NCBI GenBank assembly: GCA_010093705.1
Contig: MU006108.1
Coordinates: 230,516-294,515 of the forward strand
DNA length: 64,000 nt
Direction of reading: 5' to 3'
Origin: Patellaria atrata CBS 101060
Taxonomy: Eukaryota > Ascomycota > Dothideomycetes > Patellariales > Patellariaceae
Positions within the stretch are counted from its first letter, which is position 1; each line of letters starts with the position of its first letter. Shown here piece by piece: positions 14,676 to 54,624 of the stretch. A program made the position numbers and the translations under genes. The notes under the pieces were generated by a model, which had not been told where the DNA came from, made no database searches, and was given only the letters and a program-made list of their open reading frames with translations.

Positions 14676-17600
14676 ATGCGTACCAAATACACGAATACCA
14701 ATCGATCGCTCAGGACCCGTCTGAGCTCATCATCGGTCAAGCGTGGTCAGCTCGGCCGAGAGAGGTCGAAAGAGCCTCAAGTGATCTCTCTGTCAGATGA
14801 TTCGAAGGAATCTGCACGCAATTCGGTTGTGCCAGACTCTGCAGGAGACGAGGATGTCGATGATGATAGCGACGATGATGATGATGATAATGATGATGAT
14901 GATGATGATGGTGATAATGATGATAATGATGATGATGTTGAGGAGGATAAGGATTTCGAAGTAGACGAAAAGGATGAAGAGGATGACGCTTCCCAGTCCC
15001 GTTCGACAGTGGCCTTTTGCAGAAAATGCGGCGCTCGACTGGGTGACTTCTTTAATAGCTTCGCTAAGGTCACCAATACTTACTACCTCCCAACTCTGAG
15101 TGGCTCGTATACGCTTGGTGGCATTCGTGGGCCGCATGGACGTAAGAAATCCGCTCTCGTAGGTGACAATTCACCTCTATTCGGTTGGTAAGTCTTATCT
15201 TCAAAACCCTTTTTTTTGTTTGTGTGATGTAAGGTACTATCATGTGTTATCGGCCCTGTAACTTGTACAGTACGGGAAAGTACGGGAAAGTACAGTTACA
15301 ATTCAGCATTTTCCCTCTTTGTGGTTATGCTTACCCTTTACCTTATTACTGTACTCCCCTTACCTTAAACCCTTACTATACCTCACACAATTTATCCATC
15401 CCATACCCACGCACGCACGCATCAACCCTTTGTTCATCAGACATGAGAGATTGATTGTAGCCTCGTGGAGTCCTAGTTCGAATGCCCATGTCCCCCGTTG
15501 TCCCCATTGTTCCAGAAATACAGTAGTACCTGATTCTTCAATATTAATGTCGACTAAAATTCTTCTAATCATCATTCTTTATTTTTTTTTCTTTCTTTTC
15601 TAAATTTCATTAATGGCCTGCACCCCTCCTCTTCCCTCTTTTTCCGGAACATTCCTTAGAATAAATTCTTTCAGTTTGAGACGGTTGAGAGCCGCTAAAA
15701 TGGCTCGCTGACAAGTCAATGATAACTTTAATATCTATTCGAGATTAACATTTGCACTAACCCTAATTGCACACTCTCATCGCCGAGAGCTACATTGCCT
15801 GCATAATTAAAATCCACAAAGGCCCCGATCTGCAAATAAACGAGGTACTTTTTGGAACCTGAACTCGACCTGATGTGACTGACAAAACCTACCTTTCTTC
15901 TTTCAATAGTCATTTCCAACGTTATTTCTGCGCAAACGATACTTGCAAAGAACATCTCGCTCTCTTCTGCAAGAGTGCTCCCTCGGAAAAGTCTGCTTTT
16001 AGGTGAGTGCACAATTCCAATAGTTGTTGGTGTTGCAAGTGCCCCGGTTTATTTCTGGTGTGGTTGTACAAAGACCATTACCATTTCGCTATCACTTGTG
16101 CATATTGCTTGCATAGCGATGCGAGATGAAAAAAGGACGCACCCCAAGCATCATTTGGCTAATCCCTATATTGCGAGCGCAGTGGCCGAGACTTTTTCAA
16201 ACTTCCTCTTATCGAATTGAGGTCCGAGGTGACAAACAAAGAAGTGGCTCCCATTGTCGAGGAAACTCACGTGGAGCATTGCCAATCCGGTGCGCAACCA
16301 CAACGAGAAGATACGACGACAGGCGCAGAGGATGAGATGGAAATGGAGGTGTCGGCGCCCCAGAGACAATCGGATCTCGATCACCAAGTCCATCATACCA
16401 GGCAGCGCTCGCGTTCCAGCCAGATACAGTTGCAGCAGCAGCATCAACACACTCCCCTTCAAAACCACCCGTCACCCATAGCTCCACCGCAGAAAGCTGT
16501 CGCAAATACTCGAGAGTCGCCTGCCGTGCCGTCGACGCAGTATTCACCTAGCACACCGAATATCAGCACTACCCAGCTCGCGAATCCGGCATCCGTGCCA
16601 AGGCATCGCGATAATGTCGTCCCAGTACATGCAGCTGTCAGAGAACATGCGCACGATAATAACATTGCTCAACCGAGTGCCCACGAAGTCAGCTTGGATG
16701 CGATCACGCGTTTGCAAACCCAGATATCGTACGACACCGCCGTGCTCCACAATCAGACTAGAGATATAGCGAGGTTGGACAGTGTCGTTGGTCGAATTCA
16801 GCAAGATATGAGACATGTACTCGACGCTCTTGACATAATGAGGGACCAGATTAGCACAAGACCATCGGGACCACAGACCGCACCAACTGGGCAAGATCGG
16901 ATGGATGACGCAGCTCTCGAGATACTGTCAAACAATGTCACGAGCATTGCAGGAAAAGTGCATGAAATCGATAACTTGAAATTACAGATGGAATTAATGA
17001 AACGTCGTATTAAGACATTAGAAGAAGGCGGAATTACTGCACCTGCTCCGGCCAGCTTTACTTCACCTCGACCCTCCTCTGATCATCAACATCCACCCCC
17101 TCCTCAACAAGCTCCTATCCATCATAATGCGCCTTCTTATAATACACCTGCAGCCGCGCCATCGACGACTCCGGCATCAACAACTCGAATAACGACTCCT
17201 CTGCGGGTAGAAAGTCATCATCCACCAGGATCGTACCATCCCTCTGCTACAGCATCCTCGCATACCTACGATCATGAACCAGCGTCCAGCGGATGGGTTA
17301 CAGTCAATCAAGGTTCTTCTTCGATCACACATGGATCGAAACGGGGTCTTCCGGATGCTATCGACACCCGGGTAAATGGCAGCGGCAGCGTTATCGGCTC
17401 GCCGAAGCGCCCCAAACTTGCACCAATCGAACCTAGACAAATTCACTATGAGACGCCGCACTCCACGGTACCGCCCATCTCATACGAGCGAATGGATACT
17501 GACGACAGTATGCCGCGGAAACATTCGATAGAATCCTATGGTGGGTCCTCCGCAGCACAATCTCCGGCATTCATACATTATCCTTCCACCAATGACATGC

Positions 17601-18445
17601 CGGAAGACGACAGTTGGCGCCCCGAATCGCAGCGGCATGGGGGACCTGTGCATACACCTTACGGTACTGCTAAACGTGGACGTCCTGGCAGTGGTGGTGG
17701 TAGAGGCCGTCCGCGAAAGAGTGATCCGGCCCTAGAGCTCGGAACGCCAGAGTGGGAAAAGCCGGACTGGACAGGCTCACAAATAGGTCCCGACGGATAT
17801 TATCAGTATCAAACGACACCGGGAGGTACGAAACGCGGAGCTATCATCCGTCGTGGTTCAGGTGGTGGTGGAAATGCGTCAGCGCGTGCGCACGATCCCA
17901 GTCGCCCCACTCCCATGCCAATGGATCCATACGCCCATACAAAGAAGACACGTACCAAACCGACGAGAAATGCAGATGGAGTTCTGATCCGTAAAGACGG
18001 ACGTCCAGATATGCGGTCCCAAAGCAGCGCCGCAAACCTACGCAAGGTCCATGCGCGTAAGGAGCAGGAGAAGACGAGCGACCGACAGCATACTCCAGCA
18101 TCCGGATTAGCGACTGCGCCTGTCCTTTCGGGATCTGGGAGTCCAGACGAAGACGATGAACATTTACACGACCGTCATCATGCAGTGATGAATAAGATGT
18201 TTCCTCGCGGAATGGAGGAACAAAAAGCAAGAATGAGCTACAGGGAACAATTCTATCCAGCGAGCTCGCCTATAGAAACAAAATTACATATGCAAAACGA
18301 AAAGTTGATAGAGGAGGCACAGCACACGGCTAAAGAAACGGTAGCTGGAGCGGAGGGGAATGGCATCGGTAGAGACGACAGGATGGAAATAACTCAGACG
18401 ACGGACAGAGAATACCAGCCATCCGCTTCGGAAACACCGGCGTGA
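14676..18445 (+). CDS. Mis18/Yippee-like zinc-domain protein with coiled coils and AT-hooks
   Basis: Three exons, 14676-15187, 15910-16002 and 16222-18445, join in phase to 942 residues; introns are unusually long (722 and 219 nt). Residues 34-42 carry QVISLSDDS, a SUMO-interaction-like motif, followed by a poly-aspartate tract (about 59-104). Residues 111-202 resemble the Mis18/Yippee zinc fold: CRKCGARLGD (Cys115, Cys118), then, across the first intron, Cys171, CANDTC (178/183), CKSAP and KSAFR, the same order as GC..C..C..LG..C..P in Mis18 proteins. The second zinc pair is C-x4-C instead of C-x2-C. A Gln/Pro-rich linker leads to two coiled coils (about 360-415 and 433-471), then AT-hook-like KRGRPG and GRGRPRK (about 688-700) and a conserved block to about 815. 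By family, Mis18 proteins prime centromeres for CENP-A loading; that role here is inference. If the first join is wrong, the two long exons would be separate genes. Confidence 0.7.
14866..14936 (+). repeat. GAT/GAC trinucleotide tract coding poly-aspartate
   Basis: An imperfect (GAT)n run with AAT and GGT interruptions inside the first exon of the Mis18-like gene, encoding an almost pure Asp/Asn stretch. Such tracts are prone to length change between strains. Confidence 0.85.
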
Positions 18446-18648: not shown

Positions 18649-18748
18649 NNNNNNNNNNNNNNNNNNNNNNNNNNNNNNNNNNNNNNNNNNNNNNNNNNNN
18701 NNNNNNNNNNNNNNNNNNNNNNNNNNNNNNNNNNNNNNNNNNNNNNNN
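18649..18748. other. Assembly gap of 100 N
   Basis: Exactly 100 undetermined bases, the conventional placeholder for a scaffold join of unknown length. The flanking sequence (18446-18648 and 18749-19014) has no gene; the right part is the JAC1 leader. Confidence 0.99.
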
Positions 18749-19014
18749 AAATAGAGTAAAAAAGTTGTGGGTGTGGTGGAGGTGAAGGTGAAGTGAATTA
18801 TGAGACTTTTATCGTCGGAGCTTAGAAAAGCTCGCGACGAAATCGGCGCTCGCCCTGACGTCCTTGATCGGCCTTCTACACCTTAACACCGGGCGAACAG
18901 AACGTTTTACAACACGAACCACCCGGATCTTCTTTTCCCTATTTCTCCTACTTGCTTTACAAAGAACAAATAAAACTAGACAATTTGTCCAACTGACTGT
19001 ATCAGCACATTAAC

Positions 19015-19839
19015 ATGCCTCCAACCACCCCAGTAACAGGCTTGCTTAAGTCCATTGTAGTGGCAGATATTTCCCCAGCTTTCCGTCACGGAGCACCATG
19101 GCGATCGCAAAGAATATGCTTCGCGGATAGCACGGGTACCAGGCGTACATCCCAGTTTCAATGCGCTTCAAAGTCTTACAATAGGCGGAGCTTCGCCACT
19201 TCCTTACGACCAAGACAAGAGTCCGCGGAATCAAAAAGCAAGGAGAGCGCAAAAGATCATAGAGCAAAGGGTACACATAATCCCTCGACGCATCGAGCAG
19301 AAGAGCACACTCACTACACATTCTTCCCCAAATCGATACCCAAAGGAGCGCCACCGGGTGGCCCGTTTGCAATCGATCTCAACGCACTCAAAAGGGAATT
19401 CCTACAGTTACAGGCCCAGGCGCATCCAGACATGCATGGCCATATAAACAAAAAGAAAGCAGAAGCACTATCCGCGCGGATAAATGAAGCATACAAGACA
19501 CTACAAGATCCATTGAAGAGAGCGCAATACCTACTTTCTCTCCGCGGTATCGATGTAGCGGAGGACGAGAGGTTAAAAGTGGAGGACCCGGAATTGCTGA
19601 TGACGGTTCTGGAGACTAGAGAGGAGATTGAGGCGGCGCAGACGGAGGATGAAATTGACGCTATGAGGGAAATCAACGAGCAAAGGGTGGAGGAGAGTGT
19701 GGGGATATTGACGAACGCGTTTGAGGAGGGGGATATTGAGGGTGCGAAGAATGAGGCCGTCAAGTTGAGGTATTGGATTAATATCAGGGAGAGTCTTCAT
19801 GCATGGGAGAAGGGAAAACCTGTTGTACTGATACATTAG
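19015..19839 (+). CDS. JAC1: Mitochondrial J-type co-chaperone Jac1 (HscB)
   Basis: J-domain protein of the mitochondrial matrix that delivers the Isu scaffold to its Hsp70 partner during iron-sulfur cluster transfer. Single exon, 274 residues. The first 90 or so residues are Arg/Ser-rich and nearly free of hydrophobic clusters, fitting a mitochondrial presequence plus spacer. The J domain begins at about 100 (HYTFFPKSIP), contains the invariant HPD in AHPDMH at about 136, and continues into the C-terminal HscB oligomerisation/Isu-binding helical domain (from KRAQYLLSLRG to the end). It is followed after 242 bp by YOS9 on the same strand. Length and domain order match HscB/Jac1, so the call is firm. 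Confidence 0.94.
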   Translation: MPPTTPVTGLLKSIVVADISPAFRHGAPWRSQRICFADSTGTRRTSQFQCASKSYNRRSFATSLRPRQESAESKSKESAKDHRAKGTHNPSTHRAEEHTHYTFFPKSIPKGAPPGGPFAIDLNALKREFLQLQAQAHPDMHGHINKKKAEALSARINEAYKTLQDPLKRAQYLLSLRGIDVAEDERLKVEDPELLMTVLETREEIEAAQTEDEIDAMREINEQRVEESVGILTNAFEEGDIEGAKNEAVKLRYWINIRESLHAWEKGKPVVLIH

Positions 19840-27591: not shown

Positions 27592-30279
27592 TCAAAAATC
27601 TTCAATATCGTCATCTTCCAGGACTAAAGCAGCAATCTCTTCTTCACCGACACTAGGTATGTCTCCTGTGTTTGTTTTTGGCTTGATGCCGCCTGACGTG
27701 GGTTTTCGTCTCGCTGACTTGGCATTGCCGCGATCAACTGGTGTGTCAGTGCTCCATTGCTCTACACTCGGTTCAATTTCGCTGTCATCATCGTCAGGGG
27801 TTTCTTCTGTGTTAATTCCTATCCCTCTAAAAGTTGTGATTTGCTCAATTTTTTTCAAAGAAGTGGACTGGATTGCGCGTCCAACTGTCTTACGTTTCAG
27901 AATCGCCGCGTAAGGTAGTCTTTCAAGAAGCATCTCAAGCTTTGCAGATGTTCCACTTGCAAAAATCGGCGGACAGTCTGTGGTAGAGCCGTCATTCTGT
28001 CCGGTATTATTACCCAAGACCGAACTGAACGTATTTCTGCCTTGCCATGCCTCGACCCCTTGTTCGCTTGTTTTGGCTGTAGCCCTTTCTGCTCCTTGGA
28101 AAGGGTCATATTCCCCTTTCTGTGCAGCTGTAACGAATAGATCTAGCAATCCTTCAATTTCCTCCTGCTGGCGCCAGAGCTTTGCAGATGTTGGGTAAAA
28201 AATCTTGAACGAATTCGCCTTGGAATAACTCTTTTCCCCTGTCAATACTGAAGGGGGAGATAACCTCTTCACCTGAGAAGGTAAGTTGAAAAGTAGACCT
28301 CGAGCGCTCGCCTGATAACTGAAGTCGTCCTGACGAAGATTATCTATGCCTGACCCCTGGAATGAACGTTTCGCGGATTTTGATAAGCTAAACCGATCGG
28401 GTGACAGTATATCGGAATCAGAGATAGATGCAATGCAACCCCAGGCGGATTCCATCGAGTCCTCCTCTGTCAGGCCGTTGCAGGAGAGCACATAGTTTTC
28501 ATGTAAAGCAGCAATAAAAGTTTGCGTGTCGGTTCCTATTTCGTTATGCAACGAGTCGACATCAACCTCAGGCGGCTTATTTCTTGCGAAATTCGGAAAA
28601 TAGGTTGGTGGCTGTGGAATCGGCTGAGAGGTAGGTTGAATTTCCTGGCGCTTATTGTACACAATCTTACCAACAGCATGAAAAATTGTAAGAATGCTTT
28701 CTCGCCGTGTAATCAGCTGCAAAGACTCTTCTTCCATTTTTGTTAGTAAAGGTTCCGCATGCTTTTTCTTGGGCTTTGAGAATGCAACTTTAGCTCCCCA
28801 TCCATTATCCCCATCCCCACGCACACAGAGAAACTCGAGAGTTGAGATCGCACTTCGTAAATCACCTATCCGACTTAGGTAATCAATGACCATAGGCCCT
28901 GGAGTTTGTCTACGACCGCTTCTTCGGGCTTCCTTAATGACGACAAGCTCTAGTGCCTTTTTCAAAAGAGTGGAGGCAACGGGATTAAACTCGAGGACAT
29001 AGAGCCCTGGGTCATGTAAGAGTTCTGGTCCAAGAAGTCGGAAAGCTGTAAAGCTATCCTGAGAAGGAGTATTGGTCGACAGCAATGTTTCAGTAATGAT
29101 CATAATAATGGGTGTAATGGATCGTTTCAGTTGTAGTAATGGGACGTTAACTGCAAGGTACCTCTGGATTGTCGAACGAAAGGACCTAAGCGTTGACGAG
29201 GTCGTAGAGTATGTATTTGGAAACTCTTCAATAAGAATGGTATGCTTCCTGGAGCCCTGCACCGAATCGCCTCTGGTCCCACAGTCGGGGAAACTAACAT
29301 CCATGTCGAGTCGTCCATAATGCCCGGCTCTTCCAATGAAATCCTCGAATCGAGTTGACGTGGTAGAGGAACCCTCATCCAAGATATTTCCACCATCGGG
29401 ATTCCTCCATTCATGTAGCTCAATCCCTAGCTCTTGCGATAGTAGGCGAACGGTTGTTGTCTTCCCTGAGCCTGCCCCGCCTTTTAGAATCAAAATTGGC
29501 TGCCGACCTATTCCCTTGGTAGTATTTTCAAACCACGAGCGAACCTTGCTGACTTTGTCTCTGTGTACAACGAGCTCGTGGAGAGCGTTCGGCCCGTATT
29601 GTTCAGTCCATGGTCTTTGATCGCTAAAATCTCGTTCCTGTTGTATTGGCGTATCTTGTCCTTGTTTTGAGCCGTTTGACCGTTTCAAGAACTTTTGGCT
29701 ACCACTGGGTAAACCTTCTTTCTGCCCACCACCGATATCTTCTGCTTCCCTACCCCGTTTCCGCATTGCAAGCGCAGTGACGGATAATGAAGTAGGCTTC
29801 GCCTCTGAAAGGTTTATAAGGGCTTCATCCAAGGAGTCGTCCTCTATCAGATCTTCAGGATCAAAAGGTTGGGATAATTGGGCTTTCTTGTGGCTCGTAG
29901 CATTGTGAGATTGTGTGCTCGCCGGGTTGGCGGCAAAGAACGAATATAATGAATTTTCCTTAGACTTCGAACCTCGTTTGGTGGACGTCTGCGATTGACG
30001 TGGGTTGGACTTTGTGCTCGTTTGAGGGTTTGATTTGTACCTTGCGAGGACCGGCTGGGACGATGGTTCGATAGGTGGGCTTAGAAGTGAGTTCTGCTGG
30101 GAGTTATCCTTACCCAATACGTCTGAGGGTACAGACGGTTTGTTCCCATGATGAACGAGAATGGGCCGTTTCGACTGCTTCTTTGAGCGAGATACGGATT
30201 TTGTAGGCGCAGGGACATCGCTTGCTTCATCGCTTGATATCACCACCACCTTCTTCCGCGCAGCCCGAGGCTGCCCCAT
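27592..30279 (-). CDS. rad17: Checkpoint clamp loader Rad17 (Rad24 in budding yeast)
   Basis: RFC-like AAA+ subunit that, with Rfc2-5, loads the 9-1-1 clamp at damaged DNA and starts checkpoint signalling in the nucleus. One uninterrupted exon of 895 codons. The N-terminal 200 residues are disordered and basic, opening with KKVVVISSDEASD, which looks like a SUMO-interaction motif. The conserved RFC entry motif RPWTEQYGPNALHELVVH is followed by Walker A GGAGSGKTTT at about 266-275 and a Walker B-like ILIEEFPN near 345. The Rad17 lid and C-terminal region follow, and the tail is acidic (EEEIAALVLEDDDIEDF), a feature known in Rad17 proteins that helps clamp binding. The gene is divergent from the GT61 gene. 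Confidence 0.93.
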   Translation of the reverse strand: MGQPRAARKKVVVISSDEASDVPAPTKSVSRSKKQSKRPILVHHGNKPSVPSDVLGKDNSQQNSLLSPPIEPSSQPVLARYKSNPQTSTKSNPRQSQTSTKRGSKSKENSLYSFFAANPASTQSHNATSHKKAQLSQPFDPEDLIEDDSLDEALINLSEAKPTSLSVTALAMRKRGREAEDIGGGQKEGLPSGSQKFLKRSNGSKQGQDTPIQQERDFSDQRPWTEQYGPNALHELVVHRDKVSKVRSWFENTTKGIGRQPILILKGGAGSGKTTTVRLLSQELGIELHEWRNPDGGNILDEGSSTTSTRFEDFIGRAGHYGRLDMDVSFPDCGTRGDSVQGSRKHTILIEEFPNTYSTTSSTLRSFRSTIQRYLAVNVPLLQLKRSITPIIMIITETLLSTNTPSQDSFTAFRLLGPELLHDPGLYVLEFNPVASTLLKKALELVVIKEARRSGRRQTPGPMVIDYLSRIGDLRSAISTLEFLCVRGDGDNGWGAKVAFSKPKKKHAEPLLTKMEEESLQLITRRESILTIFHAVGKIVYNKRQEIQPTSQPIPQPPTYFPNFARNKPPEVDVDSLHNEIGTDTQTFIAALHENYVLSCNGLTEEDSMESAWGCIASISDSDILSPDRFSLSKSAKRSFQGSGIDNLRQDDFSYQASARGLLFNLPSQVKRLSPPSVLTGEKSYSKANSFKIFYPTSAKLWRQQEEIEGLLDLFVTAAQKGEYDPFQGAERATAKTSEQGVEAWQGRNTFSSVLGNNTGQNDGSTTDCPPIFASGTSAKLEMLLERLPYAAILKRKTVGRAIQSTSLKKIEQITTFRGIGINTEETPDDDDSEIEPSVEQWSTDTPVDRGNAKSARRKPTSGGIKPKTNTGDIPSVGEEEIAALVLEDDDIEDF

Positions 30280-31936
30280 GCTTCACAGGCCGTTCTCTTA
30301 CTGTATGATCAGTCATCTGGTTGAGACTGAGGAGTAGGTAGAGAAGTTGGAGGTTTGTTCTCCTTTATGAAAAATGTCGGGTAGTTTGAGCATTACTGTT
30401 CGATGAGGTCGAGGGTTGTTAAGTTTTACCTTAGTGCTGGCGAAGAAAGCTTGTCGTACGTCGGTCACTAGTTCTACAGGGATTCTCGAATCGCGTCCTA
30501 CCGTGTAAATGAACCCACATAGAATTCATGAGTCCACGAGATCACGAGATCACGAGATCACGAAATATTCATCATATAGATTTTGATCAAATAATTCCAA
30601 TATCATTATCATATCAGCAGTTTTACACCTCCATCCAAACAGAACCGCTGCTGGACTTCATGCAAACGGGACTCCCGTCTGAGAGACATCTGACGGCATT
30701 TTAATTACCCGTAACCCGATTATGATAAGGTACTATCCGACGGTACAAAACTTAATGAAAACCTTTTTGCGAACGAGCTATTCCGCCTTCATCAATTTAT
30801 TGAACCGACTACATCTCTACGTATGAGCTGTACGGAATCCTCGATTCGACCCAGTATCACCCGCAATGGTATCCATTTTGGGGTATATCGGTCGTTTTAT
30901 ATATTATTTGCTCTTTACCCCTGCTTTATCGGAATCTGGTGCGCCTGCTTCAGATGTCATCCTTCAGCTAGGGATCGTCCGTTGAAAGTGTTGGAACTTG
31001 AAAATAAGTGAGAAAAAGTGTGAATGTTCTAGGCCCCCGTTTAGTGGCGTAGATCAATTGCGGAAAAGATCACGTTCAGCCCCGAAGAACTTATCTCCTT
31101 GTGGCATGGGTGGGTATGGACCAACGACCTCCCATCTTCCCGAATGGGTCTCACGATGCAACTGAATGGCTACTTTCCCATTATCTCTTCCGCCAAGGAA
31201 CCCCAAGTTCAACTTAACTCCCCTTGATAGGAGAAAGGAAGGTCTGAGACAAGCCTTAAATGTCACCGATTAGCATCACTAGCGTCAAACAAGACTTGTT
31301 CTCCCGGTACTTGTTATGCAGGCTCACATAGTCTTACGCATCCCTCCTTGGTTCTTGAGAGACAGCCTGACGGGACCTTTATGATTTCCACTGAATTGAA
31401 AAAATGAAGGTTATGATGATACTGTAAGTTCTGTATGATCTCTTTGTGTTTGTATCTTCAGGGTTTAAGTCTGCGTTATCAGTACGGTATTCTTAAGAAG
31501 ATTTTAAGACAATATTAGAACTACTGTACCGATCTTACCTATTCCAGTACGGTAATCTTGACTCCAGAACGCTCTCTCGCCTAGGCAGATTTCCAATGGG
31601 TCCGTGGTAGATCAAAGGCGCTGCTGACGACTGTGCTTCAACTGCCCCATGCATTCCTAGCGATCCCATAGACGCCAGTAGTGATACTGCAATCCCCCTT
31701 TCTAGAAAAGTTTCCTATATCTCGCTCTTTCCAACCCCAAGCGCAAAATGTCTACGGAAATTTTCTCTCCATTTCAATTGTTCACACTCCTTTAAACTTT
31801 TTTTCTGAAGTATTCGCGGTGGGCGTAAGCCGTTCTCTCAAACGACGGTGAATAGGAAATATCGTCACTATAGTATTCCTTCGATATCCTACGCGACAGC
31901 CCACTTCATCTTGTTTTACCCTTGGATTTGTACATC
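30280..31936. promoter_or_regulatory. Divergent intergenic region RAD17/GT61
   Basis: About 1.65 kb that must contain both promoters. No gene is supportable. A short direct repeat (ATCACGAG, three and a half copies) is listed separately; pyrimidine-rich tracts precede the GT61 start. Confidence 0.4.
30535..30564. repeat. Short tandem repeat (ATCACGAG)n
   Basis: Three complete and one partial copy of an 8-bp unit ATCACGAG in the RAD17 upstream region. No function assigned. Confidence 0.75.
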
Positions 31937-48615: not shown

Positions 48616-51600
48616 ATGGTCTTTCTGGGAGTCTACCGAGCCCTTTACGATTACGCCCCCCAGGGGGACAATGAGTTGGCGATCAGTGAAGGTGACCTTC
48701 TATTCGTCCTAGAAAAGAGTACGGACGAGCCAGACTGGTGGAAGGCAAAGAAAAAAGCGCAGAGTGAGGATGAGGAAGAGCCCGAAGGCTTGATTCCTAA
48801 CAATTATGTCGAGGAGGTAGGTTACTCTTGGTAGTTCAAGATCTCAGCATTCACTTCGTTGGGCACTTGAAAGACATCCAGAAGATACAAGTTGAACCCG
48901 CCGACATATAGACTTGCGCAAGTTGCCCTGCAGATCTTCATATACTGACTGAGACTCGTAGGCTATCCCGATACACACCTCTAAAGCCCTGTACGATTAT
49001 ACACGACAGACTGACGAGGAACTTTCATTTTCAGAAGATGCACGTCTTGACGTATACGATACAACAGATCCTGATTGGACACTGGTTGGTTTTAAAGGAG
49101 AATATGGCTTCGCGCCTAGTAATTATATTGAAAAGGTAGGAGAGGCTGCGCCGGCAATGCCAGCACGGCCAAGGATACAGGGACCCGAGCCCGAACCTGA
49201 ATCTGATATACGAGAACCTCCCACGCCGAGTACCTCAAGCAGTCCGGTCCAGAGCCCTGCTGCTGCGCTCGCAGGTATCATACAGCAGAAGACGGGTTCT
49301 AGTAGAGCGATGGCATCACCTCCACCCTCTGTCACCCTTCCTCCACGGCAACCACAATATACTCCCGAAGAGTCGGACGAAGACCAGGCGCCTCCACCTA
49401 GCCTTCCCCAACGGCCGCAATCAATGTCGCCTCAAATTCCTCAACAGGCCCGATTTGCAGAATCCCCAGAACCACCTGGTGTGATGGCCTCACCACCATT
49501 ACGCGGACCTGAATATGACGACTATAGGGGGCCAATATCTCCAGGTGGTAGTTATCATCTCTACAATATCCATGAGATGGTGTCTCACTTAGGCAAAAAT
49601 AAAAAGATGCCAATGACTTTGGGGATAAATGTACCAAAAGGCCTTATTATGATATCTCCTGAGAAATCCCGAGATCAGAAAGAATGGACTGCCGACAAAC
49701 TTTCACATTATTCTATCGAAGGAAAACATGTATTCATGGAACTTGTGAGACCAAGTAAAAGCGTTGACTTCCACGCTGGAGCAAAGGATACTGCTCAAGA
49801 GATTGTTGCGGCCCTGGGAGAACTTGCAGGTGCCGCTCGAGCTGAAGGCCTTCGAGAAGTATTAGCTGCGAGCTCGGGGAGCTCAAATGTCCAAAAGAAA
49901 GCTACAATACTTTACGATTTCATGGCTCAAGGTGACGACGAAGTAACTGTCGCGGTTGGTGATGAAGTCACCGTATTGGATGATACCAAAAGTGAAGAGT
50001 GGTGGATGGTGCGGCGGCACAAAAATGGTAAAGAAGGTGTCGTCCCAAGTAGTTACGTGGATGTCACTGGAGTCGTATCAGCAGCACCACCGTCTAGCAT
50101 GACTGGTACCAATGCTGGTAAATCCACCGTCGAACAGAACAGACTCGAGGAAGAAAGATTAGCGAGAGAAGCTTCGAGGTCATACAGGAAACGGGGAGGA
50201 AGTGATTCAAAGCCTGCAGAGGTAGGCCCTGGCCTTGCGTTACCTGAGCGTAATAGTAGTTTGATGCACGGTGATAATGACACGAAGCGCTCATCACAGA
50301 GAAGCAAGCGCGAGTCCAGAGACCCGTTGACATCCGCAAAAGGAAAGCAGAGTGAGTATTTCCTGGAGGTCTTCAGCGCATTAAACTCATATCATTACGC
50401 AGAGCCTGATCCCAACAAGACACGCACATGGACCGATCGATCAGGATCATTTCGAGTCGAGGCCGAGTTCTTAGGACTCAAAGACAACAAGATCCATCTT
50501 CACAAGCAGAATGGTGTCAAGATTGCCGTACCGGTTCCCAAGATGTCAATCGAGGATCTCGAATATGTAGAGAAGGTCACGGGGGTTTCTCTAGATGACG
50601 ACAAACCTTTATCTGATATCAAAAGAAGAAGTACGCTGCGTGCGAAAGAGAATAAAGAAGGCGAGGGCAAAGCAGGTATTTCAATTGAACACCCGAAGAG
50701 ACCGGAATACGATTGGTTCGATTTTTTCCTTCAATGTGGAGTCAATCCCCAAATTTGCGAACGATATGCTGGTGCTTTTTCACGGGACGAAATGGGTGAG
50801 GAGATCCTTCCTGACGTTAATGAACCACTGCTCCGAACTCTTGGCTTAAAAGAAGGCGATATCCTCCGCGTGATGAAGTTCCTGGATAGCAAATTCAACC
50901 GAGATGGGTCTAAAGACAAACGTGCCGTAAGCTTTGGTGGAGCGTCTGTTATTGGAGATGGTGAGGGAGCTGGCGGTTTGTTTTCTGGCCCTGGTGGAAC
51001 ACTACGCAACAATACTCGTAAAGGTCGACCTGCGCCTCCTATTCAAACTAATGATGTTGTCGATCCCAAAGCGTTCGAACAGAAAACGGATGATACAGTT
51101 AAGAAGCAACTCCCCCCAGATGCAACGCCGACTCCAATAGTCTCGGCCCCATCCACTGAAAAGAAATCTGTTGGCGGATTTGACGACGATGCTTGGGATG
51201 TAAAACCTTCGAAGCAGACAACATCTCCACCACCTACCGCTCGGTCACCTCCTCCAATACAACAAACTCACACCGTTGCTCCAAATCCTCCGCCTCCTAC
51301 TTTGACCGGGTCTATGGCAGAACTGAGTCTTCTTTCCCCTCCTTTACAACCAACTCCCGCCCCTCAGCCACAGCCACAAGCTCAAGCTCAAGCTCAAGCT
51401 CAACAACCTCCACCTCAAGCGTCACAACAACCTCAGCCTACTGGAGCAACACCTGGGTTGTTTGAGCAGCTTGCGAATCAACCACCGGGAAAACTTCCTC
51501 AATCAGCCACAGGTTTCAATCAGCAACAGCTCGCTGCACCAAGGCAGCGTCCTCAAGCTTCGCAACAGGCCCAAACTGGAGGCATGATCGCTCCACCACC

Positions 51601-52463
51601 GATGAGAGCAGCATCAGCCCCTCAAAACCCTCAACAGCAAAGTGCATTTGGTCCTCCTCCTTTGCAACCACAACTAACTGGATTTCAACCACCTCGTATG
51701 CAGACTCAAATTTCTCCTCCGGGTCAAAGCTTGCAGGATCAGTTGAATCAACAACAATTGCAGCAACAGCAGCAAGCGTTTCTGCAGCAACAACAACAGT
51801 TACGAGCCCAACAAACTGGATTTGGGATCCAAGCGCCTAATTTCAATCAATTTCCTAACGGGATTATGACTCAACCGACGGGGTTCAACCAATTTAACCC
51901 ATCACTACAGTCCCAACCAACGGGTTTTCCACAGTTTCAGGTTTCACAGTCTACGGGATTTCAACCTAACATGCAACGAGGCTTCCTTAATGGAAACGTA
52001 AGTGATTCTCCCTTTGCTGATTCGAATCGCATGAATATCCAACCAATGATGAACCAGCAGACTGAATTTCCGCAGCAGTTCTCTCCAGGTCCACTGCAAC
52101 CACAAGCTACGGGAATCAATGCAATGCTTCCGCCAGCTCTACAACCTCAAGCAACTGGTATTGCTGCTAATCGTTTTGGAAGCACCAACGCCATTGGTGG
52201 ATTTGGACAACCTCCTCCTCCAGTCCCTCCTATGCCTCCTATTCCACAGCAGCAAAGTAGTCTACAGCCTCTTGTACCGCAGAAAACCGGCCCTGCTCCG
52301 CCGGTTAGATTTGGTGTACAAAATTCGGCAAAGAAACTGACGCCGCAACCGACGGGGCGGAGGGCCAATTTATCTCAAGCTAGTAAGCTATTGATGCAAG
52401 CGTGTGTTTTGATACCATTCGTACTGACTATTTCTAGCTCCTGACAATCCCTTCGGTTTTTGA
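48616..52463 (+). CDS. SLA1: Endocytic adaptor / actin regulator Sla1
   Basis: Scaffold of cortical actin patches that couples cargo, clathrin and Las17/WASP. Exons 48616-48816, 48962-52382 and 52438-52463, 1215 residues. Domains in order: SH3-1 (ALYDYAPQGDNELAISEGD, 1-67), SH3-2 (ALYDYTRQTDEELSFSED, about 71-130), SH3-3 (ILYDFMAQGDDEVTVAVGD, about 376-440), SHD1 homology domain (RTWTDRSGSFRVEAEFLG, about 552-610, binder of NPFxD cargo), the SAM-like SHD2 (WFDFFLQCGVNPQICERYAG, about 650-715), then a 500-residue Pro/Gln tail. The tail carries at least eight [LI]xxQxTG motifs (listed as a finding) and ends ATPDNPFGF, an NPF-type end supplied by the 26-nt last exon. Without splicing the frame runs on to a different short tail, so the small exon decides the C-terminus. 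Confidence 0.95.
51377..51402 (+). repeat. CAAGCT hexanucleotide tract in SLA1
   Basis: Four to five tandem copies of CAAGCT inside the SLA1 coding sequence, encoding alternating Gln-Ala. Length-variable repeat of a low-complexity tail. Confidence 0.75.
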
Positions 52464-53125: not shown

Positions 53126-54624
53126 ATGGTGTCCTATTATTTCCACTATTCGAAATATATCTCTCGTAAGTTTCCTCTCATATCTAAACAAAACTACCCT
53201 CACCTTTCTATAGCCCTTGTTAAGAGTTTTCCAAGACTGAAGCCCCTCCATCATTGGACCTCAAGAGCTCCATATCAGTATCAGAAGTCTAAAACTCGAC
53301 TAAACTATACTCCTCAATACGTTCGAACAATGGCTACTAACGGATCTTCGAATAATGGCCCACCTTCCCCGCCCGTCGTAGACAAAGAGGATGTGGAAAA
53401 GAAGGCGAACACCCTCACACCGGCCGGCACGAAGACCAATAATTGGAGTAAACCGGGCCCTGCGGCATTTGATTTTAGATGTATGTGATATCCCGCTATC
53501 GAGAGTTCATGACTGCCTCCACCTCTTCAGTACCTCTTTTTTTTCCTTCCCCACTAACCGATTTCTTCTTTTAACATACGTATGGAAGCACGACTTATTT
53601 ACCACCAGCCGACGTCGTAACCACCCCAACCCCCTCCATGCTCTCCGCAATAGCATCCACAACCCTCCTCGACGATGTCTTCGCCGAAGACCCCACGACC
53701 ACCGCGCTCGAAACCCGCATTGCGACCCTAACTGGCCACCCCGCCGCCCTCCTTGTCCTCTCCGGCACAATGGGCAACCAAGTCGCGCTGCGCACGCACC
53801 TGCTCGCCCCGCCCCACGCCGTCCTCTGCGACCACAGATCCCACATCGTCAAGCACGAAGCCGGCGGGCCCGCCAGCCTATCCGGCGCTTTCGTCGAGGC
53901 CGTGAGACCGCGCAATCGGCATCATCTCACGCTCGAGGATGTGAGGAAATATGCGGTGCTGGATGAAGATGTGCATAGTTGTCCCACGCGCGTCATCAGT
54001 CTCGAAAACACGCTCAACGGCACCGTAATCCCGCTGTCCGAGTGTCGGCGCATTGCGCACTGGGCCGGGGAAAAAGGGATCCGGATGCATCTCGATGGCG
54101 CGAGACTGTGGGAAGCTGTTGCGTCGGGCGCGGGGGAGTTGGAGGAGTTTTGTAAGTGCTTCGATAGCGTGAGTTTGTGCTTTAGCAAGGGCCTTGGGGC
54201 GCCGATTGGGAGTGTGGTCGTCGGAGACGAGGCGTTTATCAGGCGTGCGCGGTGGGTGAGGAAGATGCTGGGGGGTGGGATGAGGCAGGCTGGTGTCGTT
54301 GCCGCGGCGGCGAGGGTGGGGGTTGAAGAAACGTTTCTTGGGGGCAGGTTGAGGGAGTCGCATGAGAGTGCCAGGAGGGTGGCGGGGATGTGGCAGGGGT
54401 TGGGGGGACGGTTGAGGTATCCGGTTGAGACGAATATGGTGTGGTTGGATCTGGAGGGGGTGGGGGTAAAGGAGGAGGAGTTTATGAGACTGGCGGGGGA
54501 GAGGGGCGTGAGGGTTTTGGGGGGACGGTTGGTAGTGCATTATCAGATTTCTGATGCGGCTATTGAGAGGTTGGGCGGGGTGATGGAGATGGTTTTGAAG
54601 GGGAATGGGGGAGGGAGAGGTTGA
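53126..54624 (+). CDS. GLY1: L-threonine aldolase (PLP enzyme), possible dual start
   Basis: Low-specificity threonine aldolase: cleaves threonine to glycine and acetaldehyde with pyridoxal phosphate, the main glycine source in some fungi. Exons 53126-53480 and 53609-54624 give 456 residues; the in-frame ATG at 53330 (MATNGSSNN) gives 388, the ordinary length of the family. The extra 68 residues contain no Asp or Glu and many Lys, Arg, Ser and aromatic residues, so they look like a mitochondrial presequence rather than leader RNA translated by chance. Catalytic residues: fold-type-I signature LSGTMGNQVALRTHL, His stacking on the cofactor in DHRSHIVKHEAGG, RMHLDGARLWEA, and PLP lysine in SLCFSKGLGAPIGS (Lys312 long form, 244 short form). 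The 3' half is strongly G-rich. Convergent with the ELMO gene. Confidence 0.93.

Follow-up and report, generated by a model that had tools for sequence, protein, structure and literature searches.

A gene on the forward strand of a 64,000-nucleotide stretch of the Patellaria atrata CBS 101060 genome (the window; C20:230516-294515) encodes what is probably the Mis18 orthologue of this fungus, a long and divergent Mis18-like protein that we do not count as a proven member of the family. Mis18 has a part in restoring the histone by which centromeres are marked. The analyses yielded a three-exon gene model (14676-18445), a domain alignable over its full length to Mis18 but not to Yippee, a long helix behind it with the period of a coiled coil, and a mostly unstructured tail containing RGRP cores. 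Genome searches covered the whole assembly (28.3 Mb, 46 contigs). Positions without a contig name are those of the window, and all features of the gene lie on its plus strand.

Gene model and splice sites

An initial annotation of the window had joined 14676-15187, 15910-16002 and 16222-18445; the product is a single 942-codon open frame, and both introns are of the GT-AG type. The first of its two introns stands. From the donor at 15188, the only in-phase acceptors that are open across exon 2 lead to 15910 and 15976, and the latter would delete the motif CANDTC. For the second intron, just two of the 20 AGs in 16041-16340 leave the frame open to 18445, so that exon 3 would begin at 16183 or at 16222. 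The intron ending before 16183 closes with CAG (16180-16182), the one ending before 16222 with GAG. A scan of 16003-16221 for a branch pattern gave a single match, a branch-like CTAAT at 16159, whose start is 23 bases from the intron end at 16182. The acceptor at 16183 is in phase, adds 13 residues (SGRDFFKLPLIEL; 16183-16221) and extends the predicted protein to 955 amino acids. The added residues align with the C-terminal end of the Mis18 domain; without them its final conserved stretch is gone and the match to Mis18 is weaker. When random 13-mers were put in their place, the scores against both human and Schizosaccharomyces pombe Mis18 were reached in 7 of 2000 trials (human alone, 27; S. 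pombe alone, 124). Because of the CAG end, the position of the CTAAT and the outcome of the 13-mer replacement, the acceptor at 16183 is preferred, and the previously chosen one is probably wrong.

In the revised model, exon 1 (14676-15187) starts with ATG and encodes residues 1-170 plus two bases; it includes the motif VISLSDD, an acidic tract and the first half of the zinc domain (15009-15187), with Cys115 and Cys118 in CRKC-x3-LGD. Intron 1 (15188-15909, GTAAGT...CAATAG) is followed by exon 2 (15910-16002), which reads GC(171)HFQRYFC(178)ANDTC(183) and carries the second knuckle, C-x4-C. Intron 2 now spans 16003-16182 (GTGAGT...GCGCAG), and exon 3 (16183-18445) ends at a TGA stop. About 200 bases past this stop, a run of 100 N at 18649-18748, probably an assembly gap, leaves the 3' untranslated region incompletely known.

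The same region might instead hold two genes wrongly joined, exon 1 being a short acidic protein and a 760-codon frame (16163-18445) a separate coiled-coil/AT-hook-like protein. Intron 1, at 722 bases, is long for a filamentous ascomycete, the exon joins are predicted from genomic DNA, and the codon bias of exon 2 is uninformative (bits per codon: -0.06 in the reading frame, against -0.06 and -0.19 in the two others). The bias is neutral (0.01) in the zinc half of exon 1 and tends towards coding, at 0.21, in the 13 codons of SGRDFFKLPLIEL, with -0.08 and -0.12 in the other frames. However, both junctions have splice sites in phase, and the joined product is Mis18-like over all three exons, the previously missed segment included, which makes a mis-joined pair of genes very improbable. 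Two other origins of intron 1 were rejected: a repeat or mobile insertion, as a DNA search of the genome found no copy but its own, and an RNA gene, as no Rfam family was found in the window at gathering scores. The three exon pieces of the single gene were the only genome matches at E <= 0.01 (four candidates scored), a search that diverged or intron-split paralogues may escape.

The Mis18-like domain and its relatives

Over its whole length the corrected domain can be aligned with both human Mis18-alpha and S. pombe Mis18, at scores reached in none of 1000 full shuffles for either protein. With the cysteines held in place, the human score was reached in 3 and the S. pombe score in 2 of 1000 shuffles, and none of 3106 decoys was as good as the match between the domain and Mis18. 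Neither the Yippee protein of the same genome (C26:286424) nor human YPEL5 gave a significant alignment with the domain; a second run with different gap settings shifted the raw scores and left the ranking of Mis18 above YPEL5 unchanged. Judged from these alignments, the resemblance to Mis18 is above chance, at a distant level, and a domain nearer to Mis18 than to Yippee is supported.

The candidate zinc ligands Cys115, Cys118, Cys178 and Cys183 align with the zinc-ligand cysteines of both Mis18 proteins, with a two-residue insertion. Cys171 aligns with a cysteine that lies outside the CxxC pairs in both solved Mis18 domains; therefore it need not be a zinc ligand, and probably is not one. The GD, TP/AP and RD positions are retained. 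With S. pombe Mis18 (PDB 5hj0, 5j6p) the candidate shares CxxC-x3-[VL]GD, TP/AP, RD[MF][YF], the cysteine ahead of the second knuckle and a helical region after the domain, and the same positions are shared with human Mis18-alpha (PDB 7sfz). Unlike S. pombe Mis18, which has 194 amino acids according to the accessible part of its description, the candidate has 955, a C-x4-C second knuckle and mostly changed pocket and dimer residues. Yippee and Mis18 belong to the same fold superfamily, as stated in the available portion of PMC4287342, and the two cysteine pairs are common to the candidate and to Yippee/YPEL proteins (the protein of this genome; human YPEL5, PDB 8qbn). In contrast to the Yippee consensus C-x2-C...GxH-x6-C-x2-C-x4-GWxY, as given in the accessible text of PMC6160453, the candidate has no GW-x-Y and its second pair is C-x4-C.

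Several results weigh against an assignment to Mis18. A comparison with Pfam PF03226, suggested in the initial annotation, gave at best 18.2 bits in a shifted register, under the cut-off of 26.6. A sequence search of the PDB returned no Mis18, hhalign gave a probability of 4.7%, and on a hidden Markov model (HMM) built from two Mis18 sequences the fungus's own Yippee scored 7.4 bits, more than the 5.6 bits of the candidate domain. The exact double C-x2-C spacing is absent, since the first knuckle is CRKC and the second the C-x4-C motif CANDTC, which had already been described as unusual. None of the four S. pombe pocket residues is identical (Y74, Y90, T105 and S107 correspond to F173, C191, K208 and P210), the change from Y74 to F173 being conservative. 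Among the four S. pombe dimer residues one is identical (V22 = V112), L116 and I31 are replaced by V218 and R121, and Y114 faces a gap. A genome search with S. pombe Mis18 found no match anywhere, the candidate locus included, and is hence uninformative. Because the exact CxxC spacing and the pocket and dimer surfaces were tested and differ from those of Mis18, we do not classify the protein as an established Mis18; should it be one, the surfaces with which it binds partners are altered.

The gene could instead encode a chromatin protein whose zinc domain, a beta-tent or some other type, belongs to a different family and is Mis18-like around the knuckles only. Such a protein might be a further Yippee-type protein that has diverged, or a factor specific to the lineage. 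In its favour, the Pfam match is not only sub-threshold but also to a profile that mixes Yippee and Mis18, going by the part of PMC4287342 available, and most residues of the Mis18 pocket and dimer interface are not kept. The fungus's own Yippee outscores the candidate on the Mis18 HMM and is nearly its equal against S. pombe Mis18 when the cysteines are kept, and GCH-x5-C is close to the GxH-x6-C of Yippee. Two YPEL-related proteins are described for filamentous ascomycetes in the accessible part of PMC6160453, and a single PF03226 match was found here. Set beside the end-to-end alignments with both Mis18 proteins and the lack of a significant one with either Yippee protein, this explanation is possible, if rather unlikely, and a divergent Mis18 is preferred.

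Predicted coiled coil and basic tail

The fold of exon 3 alone (753 residues) was predicted from the single sequence, with a mean predicted local distance difference test score (pLDDT) of 45.7 and 570 of 753 residues below 50. The prediction contains only scattered short strands and three helices, at residues 373-426 (16694-16855), 439-483 (16892-17026) and 898-925. Helix 1, separated from the domain by a linker of 150 residues, shows a period of 3.5, with leucine, isoleucine, valine or methionine at 13 of 15 a/d positions, equalled in 1 of 5000 shuffles; this strong heptad pattern points to a coiled coil. The pattern is not significant in helix 2 (428/5000 shuffles) or helix 3 (4382/5000). 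An oligomerising helix after the domain, without the 150-residue linker, appears in the available descriptions of S. pombe and human Mis18, and the C-terminal helices of human Mis18-alpha oligomerise, according to the accessible text of PMC11315898.

The tail contains two AT-hook-like RGRP cores (KRGRPGSGGGRGRPRK; residues 699-714, 17672-17719); two such cores occurred in 3 of 5000 shuffles and at least one in 145. A full-length Pfam scan of the earlier 942-codon model gave no AT_hook match. Residues 751-850 have a net charge of +13, and a basic stretch at about 17941-18072 (TKPTRNADGVLIRKDGRPDMRSQSSAANLRKVHARKE) resembles a possible conserved motif. The protein has 21 SP/TP sites and a PKRPKL motif (residues 609-614; 17402-17419), which we take to be similar to a nuclear localisation signal; VISLSDD (residues 36-42; 14781-14801) is presumably similar to a SUMO-interacting motif. 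Of the elements named in the initial annotation, CRKCGARLGD, Cys171, CANDTC, the SUMO-interaction-like motif, a coiled-coil helix and two RGRP cores were recovered. Its proposal that a single chain combines a Mis18-like domain with a coiled coil and, behind the domain, AT-hook-like motifs is supported, the AT-hook function being a prediction. The long RGRP-core tail, like the linker, sets the candidate apart from S. pombe Mis18, which likewise ends in a basic tail according to the part of its description available. Human Mis18-alpha is a short protein recruited by Mis18BP1, and we know of no RGRP tail in it.

Searches for relatives of exon 3 gave one chance match in NCBIfam (LolE, 10.3 bits against a cut-off of 540), and 19 and 5 pattern hits in prokaryote and virus contig collections, none of them confirmed and without bearing on fungi. 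Of six frames of the window that were scanned, four matched a Pfam family: an HscB/Jac1-type J-protein (HSCB_C, DnaJ; 18997-19836) downstream on the same strand, a Rad17/Rad24-type checkpoint clamp loader (27595-30282, minus strand), an SLA1-like endocytic adaptor with SH3 and SHD1 domains (48962-52441) and a beta-eliminating lyase family protein (53575-54621).

Proposed place in the centromere pathway

Matches above cut-off were found in the genome for the CENP-A chaperone Scm3 (C20:158566-158712, 66.5 bits) and for CENP-C (C13:694522, 74.2 bits), the latter search also giving sub-threshold matches in 4 of the 14 prokaryote controls. This fungus thus appears to have the usual chaperone and platform, and the protein would act inside the usual pathway and not alone; the idea that it is a self-contained CENP-A priming factor is weakened and not supported. 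The Scm3 match and the Mis18-like gene share a contig, some 86 kb apart, which is probably coincidence. SANTA had no match in the genome nor in the 14 controls, a result that says nothing on the absence of Mis18BP1.

As a mechanism, the domain may fold as a beta-tent around one zinc held by Cys115, Cys118, Cys178 and Cys183, and both the domain and the coiled coil would serve to oligomerise the chains. Most likely the assembly would act as Mis18 does, residing at centromeres and delivering Scm3 with CENP-A there, and the basic RGRP-containing tail may help to keep it on AT-rich DNA. A DNA tether of this kind would be plausible. It is a doubtful and much wider step to suppose that filamentous ascomycetes in general have a long Mis18 whose RGRP/AT-hook tail anchors the oligomer to AT-rich centromeric DNA and replaces recruitment by the Mis18BP1 of animals. 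According to its title, Zhang et al. 2020 reported that Mis18 of fission yeast contacts DNA directly, so that such a contact is not itself new. No paper on Mis18 of filamentous ascomycetes was among the matches listed, and one may well be in print, as the search did not extend to subscription journals. The protein looks like an interesting variant of a known protein, not like a novel type of system.

The corrected splice site is important in itself, restoring the last conserved stretch of the domain. In the accessible text of PMC7618776, Mis18 targeting in species without Mis18BP1 is called unresolved, and a spindle-pole route by way of Sad1 is then proposed for fission yeast. If true, a fungal Mis18 whose own tail is DNA-binding-like would be another simple candidate answer to how Mis18 finds the centromere.
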